Assembly: GCA_008636095.1 (NCBI GenBank)
Contig: VSJD01000292.1
Coordinates: 1-17,899, forward strand
Length of the DNA stretch: 17,899 nt
Origin: Kiritimatiellota bacterium
Lineage (GTDB): Bacteria > Verrucomicrobiota > Kiritimatiellia > JAAZAB01
Direction: 5' to 3'
Both the position numbers and the translations under genes were made by a program. Shown piece by piece: positions 4,212 to 12,792 of this stretch (its first letter is position 1; every line of letters starts with the position of its first letter). The notes beneath the pieces are model-generated. The model did no database searches and had not been told where the DNA came from. It saw only the letters and a list, made by a program, of their open reading frames with translations.

Positions 4212-4287
4212 AACATCCAACATCGAACATCGAATAAAAAGCGCTGAAAATTCGGCGTTGGACGTTCGATGTTGGATGTTCGGTGTT
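4212..4287. repeat. Heptamer array in inverted-repeat arrangement (rodA-mrdA gap)
   Basis: Left arm 4212-4232 reads AACATCC, AACATCG, AACATCG. Right arm 4253-4287 reads CGGCGTT, GGACGTT, CGATGTT, GGATGTT, CGGTGTT. Both are exact 7-nt periods. The arms are complementary: 17 consecutive bases at 4212-4228 pair perfectly with 4264-4280 across a 35-nt loop. It would form a long hairpin in the operon mRNA between mrdA and rodA. There is no T-run, so it is not a typical terminator. Confidence 0.9.
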
Positions 4288-4308
4288 TTCTTTTTCTGTG
4301 GGCATTGT

Positions 4309-6114
4309 TCAGCCGTTTCCTTCCCCGGCCAAAATTTCCCTCATCAACTGGCGCATGCGCGGGCCCACCGAAATCCCGCCCGAAACAGCGTCATCCATCA
4401 CAATGGCCACGGCGTAACGCGGATGTTCGAACGGGGCGAACAGAATCATCCACCCGTGCTTCTGGCCGGTGCCTTTGCGTCCGTATTCGGCCGTGCCGGT
4501 TTTGCCGGCCATGGCAATGCCCTCCAGTTGGGCCAGGCGGCCGGTGCCTTCCGCATCCTGGATGACATCCCGCATGCCGTTTTTAACCAGGGCCAAATGG
4601 TCTGCCGGCCAGTGCATGTGGCGGACGACAACCGGTGGGATTTCCTTGAATTCCTCTGCGTTCTCGTCGCGTTCGGCCATTACCAGGCGTGGCTGATAAA
4701 GGCATCCGTCATTGGCGATGGTTGCCGTCAGCATGGCCATTTGCAGGGGCGTGACCTGGAGCGCGCCCTGGCCGACCGCGATGTTGCAGGTGTCGCCATC
4801 GCGCCACGCCTCGCCGAAGGTCTGGCGCTTCCAGGCCTTACCCGGCAAAAGGCCGGCGCTTTCGCCGTCGAGACTGATTCCGGTTTTTTGGCCAAAGCCG
4901 GTTGCCAGTGCCATGTTATAGATGCTGTCGTACCTGCACTTCAGGCCTAATTGATAAAAAAATACGTTGCAGGAAATCCGGATGGCCCGGCGGAAATTAA
5001 CGCGGCCATGCGCCTCGTCCATATAACAGGCGAACCGCTGATTACCTAACTCGAAATAGCCGGGGCACTCCAGTGTCAAGTCGGGATCCACGCCCTGCTC
5101 CAGGGCGGCGAGTGCCACCAGTGGTTTGAATACACTGCCCGGCGCATAGAGGCCATTCAAGGCGCGGTTGAAGAGCGGTTTGCGGGGATCATTCAACAAA
5201 CGATTCCAGTTATCCTGTGTGATTTTGGAACAGAACAGATTGGGGTCGAAATCCGGGGTGCTGACCATGGCCAGTACGTCGCCGTTGCGCGGATCCACGA
5301 CTACTATGGCGCCGACGGTATCGCCCATGGCCTGTTCCGCCGCCCGCTGGATGCGCAGGTCAATGGTCAGCTTCAAGTCGCCGCCGGGCACCGGTTCGCG
5401 CAGGGTCGTTTCGTCGTGCTTAAAACCGATGACGTCCACCTGGACCAGCCGGCCGCCGGCTCTGCCGGTCAACAGTTCGTCAAATCTTTTTTCCAGGCCG
5501 GTTTTGCCGGTCAGGTCAGGCAGGTAATAATGGTACAGTTCATCTTCTTCGCTCTGAATTTCTGCCGTACCCACGTATCCCAGCAGGTGGGCAAGGATAT
5601 GGCCCTGGGGATAGACCCTGTCTGCGTCCACCACGATATCCACGCCCGGCAGTCGCGCTCCGGATTCCGCCAGGCGGGCCATGGTCTGTTCGTCCACGTG
5701 CCGCCAAGCCACCAGCGGCAGGGCTTTGCGGCTGTAAAGATGGTCGGTAATCCGGGACTGATCAATCTGGGGCGGGTGTCCGATAATGGCGGCGATTTGG
5801 TGAATGGTTTTTCGGGTGTCCATGGCTGTATTCCGCCGTTTGCCTGTCAAACCGAGTTCCTCCAGGTAGAGGGCAATCCCATAGTTGGGCGCATTGTCGG
5901 CCAGGCATACACCCTGGCGGTCATATATTTTTCCGCGGACGCCCGGGATGCGCACGCGGCGTACGGACTGTTGTTCCAGGTTGTTCGCATAATGCTCGCC
6001 ATGCCCCACCTGGATGTACCATAGCGCGATCACCAGGATGCCCAGTGCCGACAGTATTAGGATCTTCAGCCGGCGCAGTCGCGTATGTTCCCTTGTTGTC
6101 AGGTGCAGGCTCAT
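4309..6114 (-). CDS. mrdA: Penicillin-binding protein 2, class B peptidoglycan transpeptidase
   Basis: 601 residues, usual PBP2 length. A cytoplasmic N-terminus is followed by one membrane anchor (about residues 17-35), a pedestal/dimerisation domain starting VRGKIYDRQG (59-68), and a transpeptidase domain with all three active-site motifs: SVFK (327-330, nucleophile S327), SCN (381-383) and KTGT (538-541). It cross-links stem peptides of new lateral-wall peptidoglycan and works with RodA, encoded next. The start codon overlaps the mreD stop by 4 nt (ATGA), implying translational coupling. The protein ends without the long basic tail seen in some PBP2s. Membership of the PBP2/MrdA branch rather than FtsI is supported by the rodA/mre neighbourhood. 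Confidence 0.96.
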   Translation of the reverse strand: MSLHLTTREHTRLRRLKILILSALGILVIALWYIQVGHGEHYANNLEQQSVRRVRIPGVRGKIYDRQGVCLADNAPNYGIALYLEELGLTGKRRNTAMDTRKTIHQIAAIIGHPPQIDQSRITDHLYSRKALPLVAWRHVDEQTMARLAESGARLPGVDIVVDADRVYPQGHILAHLLGYVGTAEIQSEEDELYHYYLPDLTGKTGLEKRFDELLTGRAGGRLVQVDVIGFKHDETTLREPVPGGDLKLTIDLRIQRAAEQAMGDTVGAIVVVDPRNGDVLAMVSTPDFDPNLFCSKITQDNWNRLLNDPRKPLFNRALNGLYAPGSVFKPLVALAALEQGVDPDLTLECPGYFELGNQRFACYMDEAHGRVNFRRAIRISCNVFFYQLGLKCRYDSIYNMALATGFGQKTGISLDGESAGLLPGKAWKRQTFGEAWRDGDTCNIAVGQGALQVTPLQMAMLTATIANDGCLYQPRLVMAERDENAEEFKEIPPVVVRHMHWPADHLALVKNGMRDVIQDAEGTGRLAQLEGIAMAGKTGTAEYGRKGTGQKHGWMILFAPFEHPRYAVAIVMDDAVSGGISVGPRMRQLMREILAGEGNG

Positions 6115-6626
6115 GAAGAAGGCTCCACGGCAATATTGCCCGTTAACCGGTCGAGCCGTTCCAAAACGGCGAATACGATCGGCGCCAAAATCATGCCGAG
6201 CAAGGCGGTGCCGATGGCCTTAAGCGCGACCCAGAACCACGATACTTCCCGCAGGCTTTCCGCGCTGATCAGCAATATTGCATAGAGGCCGAACGTAAGT
6301 CCCAAACCGGCCAAGAGGCCGAACACCATGTGCGTCACGCCCCGGGCGCTAAAGACCACGTTGCGATAAAGCCACGCAACAATCCCCAGCACGCAAAAGA
6401 CAGTGGTGGAATAGCCCATTGGCAGGGCTTCGAGGCTGTCGCACAGCACTCCGCCGACGATGGCCGCCGTCACCAGCAGTAAGAGCGAGCGATGGAGCGC
6501 GTAATAGAGCACGACACTCAGCACAAGCGGCGCCTTGGCCTGACCCAGCAAAGTCAGTCCCGGCAACACCTGTTGCGCCACGGCGCCGATCAGCAGGGCA
6601 ACGGCCATAATGACAAGGTTCATCAT
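6111..6626 (-). CDS. mreD: Rod shape-determining membrane protein MreD
   Basis: 171 residues, mostly hydrophobic, with about five or six predicted membrane segments. This fits MreD (about 160-170 residues), and the position between mreC and mrdA is diagnostic. A motif typical of the family, GGVLCDSLEALPMGYST (58-74), is visible in the middle. MreD is an inner-membrane scaffold of the elongasome that contacts MreC and the RodA/PBP2 pair. Two adjacent ATGs (6624-6626 and 6621-6623) could start it, only 2 nt after the mreC stop. No strong Shine-Dalgarno exists because the bases upstream belong to the heptamer array, so coupling to mreC translation is likely. Confidence 0.92.
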   Translation of the reverse strand: MMNLVIMAVALLIGAVAQQVLPGLTLLGQAKAPLVLSVVLYYALHRSLLLLVTAAIVGGVLCDSLEALPMGYSTTVFCVLGIVAWLYRNVVFSARGVTHMVFGLLAGLGLTFGLYAILLISAESLREVSWFWVALKAIGTALLGMILAPIVFAVLERLDRLTGNIAVEPSS

Positions 6627-11762: not shown

Positions 11763-11798
11763 ACATTCGACAATCCTACCGAAACAGTCAGAAGCTCC

Positions 11799-12629
11799 AT
11801 GTTGTTATTTGATGCTCATTGCCACTTGCAGGATGAACGCCTGGCCAGTTGCTTGCCCGAGGTGTTGAACCGGGCGGAGCGCGCGGGCGTCCGGCAAATG
11901 CTGTGCTGTGGGTGTCATGAGCGCAATTGGGACAGCGTCCTTGCCCTTGCGCAGGCCCATCCGCAAATCGTACCATCCTTCGGCATCCATCCCTGGTATA
12001 TGCAAGGGATGACGAACGGCTGGCTGGTGACCTTGGAGCGGTTTTTGTCGGGTCAACCCTCGGGTGTCGGCGAGATCGGCCTTGATCATGCCGTGACTCC
12101 CCGTGCCGACGAGGAGCAGGAAGCCGTGTTTATCGCCCAGTTGCGCCTGGCCCGCAGTCTTAAACGGCCGGTCAGTCTGCATTGCCGGAAAGCCTGGGAA
12201 CGGTTGCGGAAGATTTTAAATCAAGAAGGCGGAATCGGGTGGGGCGGACTGATTCATTCCTATTCGGGGTCCGCGGAATTGGTGAAGCCGCTGGAAGAAA
12301 TGGGCTTGTATATTTCTTTCAGCGGTGCTATCACGCGCCCTGGAAACAAACGCGGCCATCGGGCTTTGGCGACGGTGTCGCCCGAGCGCCTGCTGATCGA
12401 AACCGACAGTCCCGATTTACCGCCAGTCGGCACACCGGCTGTTGCCGGCACACCGGCTGTTGCCGGCACACCGGCTGTTGCCGGCGCAGCCAGTGTGGTC
12501 AATGAACCGGCGAATTTGGCTCTCGTGGCGGCCGCTGTGGCTGGTATCCTGGGACGGACGCCGGGCTGGGTGGCGGAGCAGACATTCGCCAATGCCAACC
12601 GGCTGTTGGCCGGGATTATGAAATGTTGA
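11799..12629 (+). CDS. tatD: TatD-family metal-dependent deoxyribonuclease
   Basis: 276 residues. It has the TatD amidohydrolase-like barrel with metal ligands H7 and H9 (DAHCHL), E92 (VGEIGLD), H128 (SLHCRKAW), H153 (IHSYSG) and D203 (LIETDSPD). Family members are cytoplasmic 3'-5' exonucleases acting on single-stranded DNA or RNA, linked to DNA repair and quality control. Odd: the loop after ETDSPD, where relatives have a short proline-rich segment before NEP, is expanded by three copies of GTPAVA (211-228) encoded by an 18-bp tandem repeat. It lies 36 nt after glmM and is probably co-transcribed. No strong Shine-Dalgarno is seen. Confidence 0.92.
   Translation: MLLFDAHCHLQDERLASCLPEVLNRAERAGVRQMLCCGCHERNWDSVLALAQAHPQIVPSFGIHPWYMQGMTNGWLVTLERFLSGQPSGVGEIGLDHAVTPRADEEQEAVFIAQLRLARSLKRPVSLHCRKAWERLRKILNQEGGIGWGGLIHSYSGSAELVKPLEEMGLYISFSGAITRPGNKRGHRALATVSPERLLIETDSPDLPPVGTPAVAGTPAVAGTPAVAGAASVVNEPANLALVAAAVAGILGRTPGWVAEQTFANANRLLAGIMKC
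12429..12482. repeat. 18-bp tandem repeat (three copies) in tatD
   Basis: The unit GGCACACCGGCTGTTGCC is repeated three times perfectly (12429, 12447, 12465), with a degraded remnant GGCGCAGCC after it. The unit length is a multiple of three, so copy changes preserve the frame. It encodes GTPAVA each time. Confidence 0.97.
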
Positions 12630-12669
12630 AATCTTAAATATACTATGAGGCAGTTTCAAAACTACTTTT

Positions 12670-12792
12670 GCCACAAAAAAGCACAAGAAACACAAAAGCT
12701 CGATATTTTATAAGAATTTAATATACAACATGATACATCCGAAAAGCCTGGTTCCGCCTTTCTTATTTGTGAATTTTGTGCATCTTTGTGGC
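12670..12792. repeat. Inverted CACAAA-word repeat in the tatD-dehydrogenase gap
   Basis: The left arm 12670-12696 (GCCACAAA, GCACAA, CACAAA with short gaps) and right arm 12766-12792 (TTTGTG, TTTTGTGC, TTTGTGGC) pair at about 22 of 27 positions. Word spacing is about 9-10 nt. The loop is A/T-rich (12698-12765). The rest of the 201-nt gap holds the dehydrogenase Shine-Dalgarno AAGAGG at 12817-12822; I could not assign a promoter with confidence. Confidence 0.85.

Follow-up and report, generated by a model that had tools for sequence, protein, structure and literature searches.

In REP systems with RAYTs (REP, repetitive extragenic palindrome; RAYT, REP-associated tyrosine transposase) and in REPINs, a protein gene is framed by inverted repeats, copies without the gene are scattered between genes, and each lineage has one repeat type. 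The cyanobacterial short tandemly repeated repetitive (STRR) sequences are arrays of heptamers. The 23S rRNA intervening sequences (IVSs) of Coxiella and Leptospira consist of an open reading frame (ORF) within an inverted-repeat stem and are excised by RNase III; in Coxiella, tandem GACAGAT heptamers, two or three copies by strain, precede the ORF of the S23 or IVP family, and they are not connected there with dispersed arrays (PMC4990558; statements on this and the other papers cited cover the portions accessible to us). In print the IVP/S23 family has been called functionally uncharacterised. Intergenic tandem words of 7 or 8 nt include the GGGAATC arrays of Xanthomonas, with 70 and 75 cases of facing pairs (PMC4692102), the TAACTGA arrays of Beggiatoaceae (PMC4679880), and heptamer and octamer families of Geobacter metallireducens, also with facing pairs (PMC2700814); in the portions seen, such arrays are explained by G-quadruplexes, slippage or regulator binding, with no tie to IVP genes. 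Here we analyze a 17,899-nt stretch of Kiritimatiellota DNA (contig VSJD01000292.1 of assembly GCA_008636095.1), called the window below, which is contig C185 of a metagenome-assembled genome (MAG) of 3.8 Mb in 357 contigs, G000. Its gene junctions hold tandem words like those of the taxa just named and of STRR sequences. Most of the arrays of this genome are, with a probability of about 0.85 judged from sequence, arms of small elements that we call IVP elements, in which each IVP lineage has its own word. The layout would be n words, the IVP gene, and n facing words, the words being mostly of 7 nt, sometimes of 8 or 6, according to the IVP lineage. The sites in the window would be gene-less copies, some of them pairs that face each other across a short loop, others lone arms or arms enclosing another such element.

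How do these putative elements compare with the described systems? Like the 23S rRNA IVSs, they involve the same protein family, and the IVP ORF was found within an inverted-repeat stem. Unlike those IVSs, they lie between protein genes, both arms are arrays of words, and a single genome has many copies and many words, with gene-less copies scattered; the 28 of 30 loci of the window's genus that were scored have coding sequence on both sides (rRNA was not searched for). In the framing of a gene and the scattering of gene-less copies, IVP elements would work like RAYT-REP and REPIN systems, but the protein is a four-helix bundle rather than a Y1 transposase, and the arms consist of periodic words in place of short palindromes.

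IVP genes were recognized as matches to the four-helix-bundle family PF05635, which has a curated cut-off of 33.8 bits. There were 12 hits in G000, 10 of them over the cut-off; 52 of 58 genomes (G000 and 57 relatives) and 28 of 34 named genomes had hits, and 14 control genomes had none. Facing arrays flank nine of the 12 G000 hits (9 of the 10 over the cut-off) at distances of 30 to 153 nt; they are built of the words GACGACA, AGAGATC and its near variant AGAGGTC, GTGTTCG, GATTTTC, AATGGTT, AACATCG, AAATCCG and AAATTCC. Two of the three hits without facing arrays are below the cut-off. Inverted-repeat scores at the G000 IVP genes were 21-46, and shuffled maxima were 11-15.

A total of 103 IVP loci were analyzed from about 460 hits (344 + 118), weighted to high scorers: the 12 of G000, the best of most relatives (23) and of named genomes (28), and 40 from eight genomes, leaving out L320 (not located), five duplicates and two loci with short flanks. 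The rule for passing was an inverted repeat of at least 16 plus periodicity in both flanks; thresholds were chosen after inspection of the data and applied equally to controls, and there is dependence among loci from the same genus. Seventy of the 103 IVP loci passed, compared with 5 of 298 G000 control genes, none of these an IVP gene. Within the genus 19 of 30 loci passed, 50 of 75 clusters at 70% identity had a passing member, and in IVP-rich relatives the rule was satisfied by 16 of 23 IVP genes versus 1 of 113 control genes. The inverted repeat by itself was present at 79/103 loci versus 8/298 controls. When both flanks were scored for periodicity (at least 15/21), 53 IVP loci were positive at lag 7, five at lag 8, three at lag 6, two at lag 12, one at lag 11, and none at lags 4, 5, 9 or 10 (controls at lag 7, 8/298). 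One word was common to both flanks, at a consensus of at least 0.80, in 68/103 (period 7 in 60, 8 in five, 6 in three), compared with 4.2% of mismatched flanks. A laxer consensus of 0.68 raised this to 81/103 (68, 10 and three, respectively) but also let through 38% of mismatched flanks, so that conclusions about shared words rest on the 0.80 rule. Among the 63 loci with 7-nt arrays on both sides, the flanks agree in the facing orientation in 57 and on the same strand in seven, and flanks taken from different IVPs agree in 9.0%. Across 81 loci, five full words are the most frequent number per arm (26 left, 34 right), followed by four (21 left, 25 right).

The word goes with the protein lineage. 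Word and protein divergence are correlated (Mantel r 0.325 over 68 loci, not reached in any of 2000 permutations, with the dependence among loci of one genus still applying); words were at most one mismatch apart in 12/12 IVP pairs with a protein distance below 0.2 and in about 1% of pairs beyond 0.6. Period also follows the tree: on a FastTree phylogeny of the 81 loci passing the lax rule it changes 8 times, compared with a mean of 12.6 and a minimum of 10 in 300 shuffles. Of the 87 arrays sampled from G000 as described below, 79 are at most one mismatch from one of 21 IVP words of the genus (uniform random heptads, 24.9%). In the stretches sampled, arrays also went with the presence of IVP genes. 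Ten stretches from four IVP-free relatives (187,088 bp) contained no lag-7 and no lag-8 arrays, with two clusters at lag 6, one at lag 9 and two at lag 13, and ten stretches from five IVP-rich relatives (200,000 bp, selected so as to exclude listed IVP genes) contained nine at lag 7 and four at lag 8, with one at lag 5 and two at lag 6. The suspicion in a preliminary description of the window that one cause underlies several unrelated words seems right.

The genome-wide lag comparison called for in that description gave a clear excess at 7 nt. In 20 G000 contigs (213,421 bp, at least 17/21) lag 7 gave 16 clusters, lag 14 gave 10, and each of the remaining lags between 2 and 20 gave zero to three (lag 6, one; lag 8, two); shuffles gave 0.0 at lag 7. 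A larger sample of 61 G000 sequences, comprising the window and 60 contigs (679,487 bp or 18% of the genome; threshold 16/21), yielded 65 noncoding and 22 'coding' lag-7 clusters, the coding label being approximate because the gene caller was crude. At other lags the noncoding and coding counts were 10 and 2 (lag 8), 7 and 8 (lag 9), 0 and 7 (lag 6) and 2 and 5 (lag 12), with 0-1 clusters at lags 5, 10, 11 and 13. The same period predominates in 80 mreB loci from Verrucomicrobiota to Omnitrophota (1.25 Mb), with 31 clusters at lag 7, one each at lags 5 and 8, four at lag 10, none at lag 11, and 16, 12 and 12 at lags 6, 9 and 12, as expected of coding repeats; the words differ between species. 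The inward word of the arrays is rich in G and poor in C (0.33 versus 0.15).

The view that each site has a word of its own and that no dispersed sequence is involved did not hold up. Manual grouping placed the 87 arrays in about a dozen families, and three CGATGTT-type words in tandem (at most two mismatches) occur at 107 places in G000 (54 + 53), the reversed pattern at none; among 40 named genomes the pattern is present in 13 and the reversed control in none. Most arm words of G000 IVP genes belong to such dispersed families, AAATCCG having no assigned array in the sample. By manual count, 20 of 30 distinct AACATCG copies end in TTTGCTT, and the copies, which vary in number of words, largely agree in the order of their word variants. 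It would follow from the common end letters and variant order that the AACATCG copies spread as sequences.

Within the window, a scan for lag-7 self-similarity (at least 19/28 positions, with 50 Markov shuffles as control) found four clusters, at 4248-4296, 6613-6682, 8843-8895 and 10248-10294, versus a shuffle mean of 0.02, so the exact 7-nt repetition first reported at the junctions is real. A threshold of 16/21 also picked up the CCATTAA array at 10367-10394 and, at 4209-4240, the left arm. The other reported periods stood less well: 8 nt near 10333-10370 is weak (19/28, shuffles reaching 21), with Tandem Repeats Finder (TRF) giving period 8, and 9-10 nt at 12670-12792 is below the 19/28 threshold, with TRF giving 2.6 copies of 9 nt. 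Facing complementary arms were confirmed at three sites, 4212-4234/4258-4280 (91% over 23 nt), 10292-10325/10335-10368 (76% over 34 nt) and 12670-12696/12766-12792 (81% over 27 nt), and none were found for the arrays at 6626, 8861 and 10260. DNA-folding z scores at the facing-arm sites 4212, 10292 and 12670 are -6.0, -4.7 and -2.1, respectively, and those of the other three arrays are +0.1 to +1.2. Each site was compared by alignment with the arms of IVP loci (Table 1).

Table 1. Repeat arrays of the window and the IVP gene arms most similar to them
Feature	Position	Strand	Context	Match to arms of IVP genes
Facing 7-nt arms, AACATCG inward (4212-4234, 4258-4288)	4205-4292		Between rodA and mrdA	39/43 nt identical to arm of AACATCG IVP gene G000:C256:8175-8456
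Single-arm array, GAACGAA on gene strand (TTCTTCG on +)	6617-6677	-	mreC stop/mreD start	30/31 nt identical to right arm of G002 IVP gene L334; also aligns with L324 of G004, sister of L334
CGCTCAA array, 4 words	8855-8890		Between divergent mreB and 8910 ORF	More than one mismatch from every genus IVP word used; cognate IVP not found
GACGACA array, left-arm type	10255-10292	+	Overlaps stop codon of ORF 8910-10271	31/35 nt identical to left arm of IVP gene G000:C296:195-509
8-nt-word hairpin core (GGAGTA.. / ..TACTCC), dispersed	10292-10370	+	Nested between two 7-nt arrays	Loose resemblance to 8-nt arms of IVP loci L355 and L292 (other genera); no IVP with such arms seen in G000
CCATTAA array, right-arm type	10370-10396	+	Just before glmM start region	19/19 nt identical to right arm of AATGGTT IVP gene G000:C239:6040-6318
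Inverted repeat with CACAAA words (arms 12670-12696 and 12766-12792), of similar look	12670-12792			No good IVP arm match

Most of these sites appear to be arms without an IVP gene and would stand to IVP genes as REPs do to RAYTs. The rodA/mrdA site reads as a gene-less member of the AACATCG family. The L334-type protein has no close relative among the 12 IVPs of G000 (best identity 39%). Eight further copies of the GGAGTA core were read, with GACGACA-type letters at the left in all eight (one a stub) and CCATTAA words at the right in six. The array at 6626-6674 lies within the C-terminal codons of mreC (ORF 6629-7576) and is therefore translated; at 6629-6680, the TTCTTCG array is read as the C-terminal tail of MreC (..DERRTKNEEPKTKN).

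By Pfam, the window encodes RNase E/G, RodA, a PBP transpeptidase, MreC, MreB, a phosphoglucomutase/phosphomannomutase read as GlmM, TatD and Ldh_2. ORF 6111-6626, read as MreD from its position, and ORF 8910-10271 have no Pfam match, and Rfam gave nothing matching inside the window. MreB puts the window within Kiritimatiellae, with 86% identity to the closest named relatives. A second repeat, in coding DNA, is an 85-nt stretch at 8943-9027 (GCCTGCCCGCAGTCGCTGCGCGACAACGTTGCGGGCG..), which falls among the codons for the N terminus of the 8910 ORF and is absent from G004; a similar sequence is intergenic, near 1235 (about 1235-1310). In tatD there is an in-frame 18-bp repeat with 3.2 perfect copies (12428-12485, encoding GTPAVA).

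Comparison of orthologous junctions among genomes of one genus revealed presence and absence of whole arrays, as with transposable elements. At rodA/mrdA the element is present in G000 and G003 with the same number of words and changed letters, with another repeat in the G003 loop; in G002 and G004 the two genes overlap without a spacer, and G001 keeps one word. The glmM junction (10256-10395) has about 4.6 + 2.7 words around the GGAGTA core in G000 and about 7 + 4.7 around another core in G004. At the mreB junction (8855-8890), G003 and G004 retain the four words and differ solely by point changes. On three further contigs, orthologous junctions often have no array or have other repeats. The predicted gain or loss of words between close strains was thus seen at glmM but not at mreB or rodA/mrdA, where the relatives that have the array differ only in letters, the outcome that the preliminary description had named as refuting, so that it is not universal. 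No consistent target-site duplication was seen at the sites read. A candidate 5-bp duplication at 4175-4311 was dropped after part of the spacer was found in the more distant relative G001. The G004 site of the second IVP gene of C239 was likewise dropped as an empty site, an internal deletion having kept the end of the gene; only G003 is clean there. As a separate observation, the rodA/mrdA and mreC/mreD junctions of L166 (G003) and L165 (G004) hold other repeat-like inserts, CCTCTCCCTTGGGAGAGG.. in G003, and CTGGATTCCCG..CGGGAATGAC in G004 with a similar one in G003.

Several observations weigh against the assignment of most arrays to IVP elements. Of the 103 IVP loci, 35 fall short of the 0.80 consensus and 22 fall short of the lax rule as well, including L255 of G000, which is over the Pfam cut-off; moreover, the post hoc thresholds, the weighting to high scorers and the dependence of loci within a genus all bear on these numbers. 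The genomes of L109, L112 and L128 carry 7-nt arrays without a PF05635 hit; these MAGs may be incomplete, or the arrays may be relics. In the window, no cognate IVP was found for the CGCTCAA and CACAAA sites, and for TTCTTCG and GGAGTA one was found solely in other genomes. Of the relatives without the first IVP gene of C239, two still have about two words there, as would be expected if the gene had been lost but equally if it had been inserted into older words.

Could the arrays instead be binding sites for a host regulator, IVP then being a regulator that binds the repeats and not a component of a selfish element? This is how the Geobacter metallireducens (PMC2700814) and Beggiatoaceae (PMC4679880) words have been read, and of the alternatives it survives best, although we consider it unlikely. 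Noncoding arrays lie between co-directional genes in 55/62 cases, compared with 249 of 329 intergenic regions in the background, and several families stand directly before start codons or at stops. Rules for the orientation of words relative to genes were dropped as independent evidence, since they mostly follow from the facing symmetry. However, presence and absence at orthologous junctions and the IVP gene within the arms look like a dispersing element; arrays may have been put to regulatory use later.

Neutral polymerase slippage, by which 7-nt tandem words grow and IVP genes insert into existing arrays, is a less probable explanation still. Slippage is cited for heptamers in a paper on Xanthomonas and Nostoc, strain-to-strain variation in heptamer number has been published (PMC4692102, PMC4990558), and both the differing word numbers at the glmM junction and the words remaining in relatives without the C239 gene would fit it. 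Repeats made by slippage arise in place and have no protein partner, and neither fits the arrays here. Slippage or template switching acting on arbitrary words, as first proposed for the window, leaves unexplained the IVP gene between facing arms of the same word, the link of word and period to the IVP lineage, the absence of arrays from sampled IVP-free relatives, and the end letters and variant order held in common by AACATCG copies.

Mobility through a reverse transcriptase acting in trans, with IVP in the role of its relative Avd of diversity-generating retroelements, appears improbable to a slightly greater degree. The two proteins have the same fold (4dwl, TM 0.83) and distant sequence similarity, the bAvd model matching IVP below its cut-off, and their similarity is also reported in PMC10053308. 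IVP genes are co-directional with both neighbors in 27 of the 28 genus loci scored, compared with 186/285 ordinary genes, which hints at a role for the transcript or only at operon structure. G000 has one RVT_1 gene, and RVT_1 occurs in 28 of the 52 genomes with PF05635 and in none of the six without; these six are perhaps small genomes or poor in mobile elements, which would account for the shared lack. Unlike in Avd retroelements, however, no RVT_1 hit was obtained in G024 (18 IVPs, 97% complete), G021 (15, 92%), G057 (13, 98%), G014 (8, 96%) or G047 (8, 95%). Because several IVP-rich genomes lack a hit, gene content does not require a reverse transcriptase, and the idea was rejected, even though the six IVP-free genomes lack one too.

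Facing arms resemble REPINs and G000 has four Y1_Tnp genes, but an origin of the arrays as REP-like elements moved by Y1 (RAYT) transposases is very improbable and was rejected, since in stretches of 4 to 10 kb arrays are close to only one of the four (L178), two others having none and one a weak array 3.6 kb off, compared with 9/12 for IVP genes. At L178 (G000:C203), a CCATTAA array is about 120 nt from the Y1 gene and a GACGACA array 1.2 kb away.

How might an IVP element work? The predicted structure of one G000 IVP is a four-helix bundle (pLDDT 95.6) closest to 2gsc (TM 0.92) and 2rld, ahead of Avd. Both of these structures have five chains, and the protein of 2gsc is described as a homopentamer of toroidal structure (PMC4990558). 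Residues Q34, S41 and E72 (numbering of the first) are invariant in ten G000 IVPs. We infer that an IVP oligomer recognizes the words of its array and maintains the arms. It would perhaps place one word on each subunit, because the solved relatives are pentameric and arms most often hold five words. As in 23S rRNA IVSs, the transcript would form a stem whose loop carries the IVP gene. IVP would act in trans, together with enzymes of the host, to keep and spread the arms, and the elements would be mobile.

Similar loci are found in other phyla. A tblastn search with IVP found 29 plasmid records, 28 of them cyanobacterial and one from Azospirillum; a phage search for IVP found nothing. Fourteen plasmid loci were fetched: 10 have an inverted repeat of at least 16, and eight of these also satisfy the periodicity rule, L363 only nominally. 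Their arm words are of 7 nt (GCTTTTA, GACGGAT, GGAAAAG) or about 8 nt (GAGCAGGG-like). The repeats at L364 (14) and L375 (15) are short and perfect, and no facing pair was seen at L366 and L373. Five of the 14 plasmid IVP genes (L363, L364, L368, L369 and L370) adjoin a tyrosine recombinase/integrase gene. On a Pseudanabaena galeata plasmid (L372), an IVP gene with arms of GCTTTTA words lies between cas6 and cas4. The name 23S rRNA IVP is spelled out in a figure legend on CRISPR adaptation modules (PMC10910872).

Tandem intergenic heptamers have been reported repeatedly in bacteria, each time with a separate explanation, and a literature search that excluded most subscription papers and all preprints found no report linking IVP with repeats. 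The link proposed here would make both testable, since each IVP predicts its own binding word, and it offers an explanation, through a protein partner, for a period of 7 and not of 6 or 8. The IVP family would also provide dozens of natural protein-word pairs for decoding specificity. A bolder and more tentative reading, which we hold at somewhat less than even odds, is that an IVP pentamer reads nucleic acid in steps of 7 nt, each subunit taking one word and each arm holding five, with a word specificity that is free to evolve between lineages (8 or 6 nt in some clades), and that this modular recognition, of a new kind, drives a selfish element in several phyla and underlies much of the heptamer-array DNA of bacteria.

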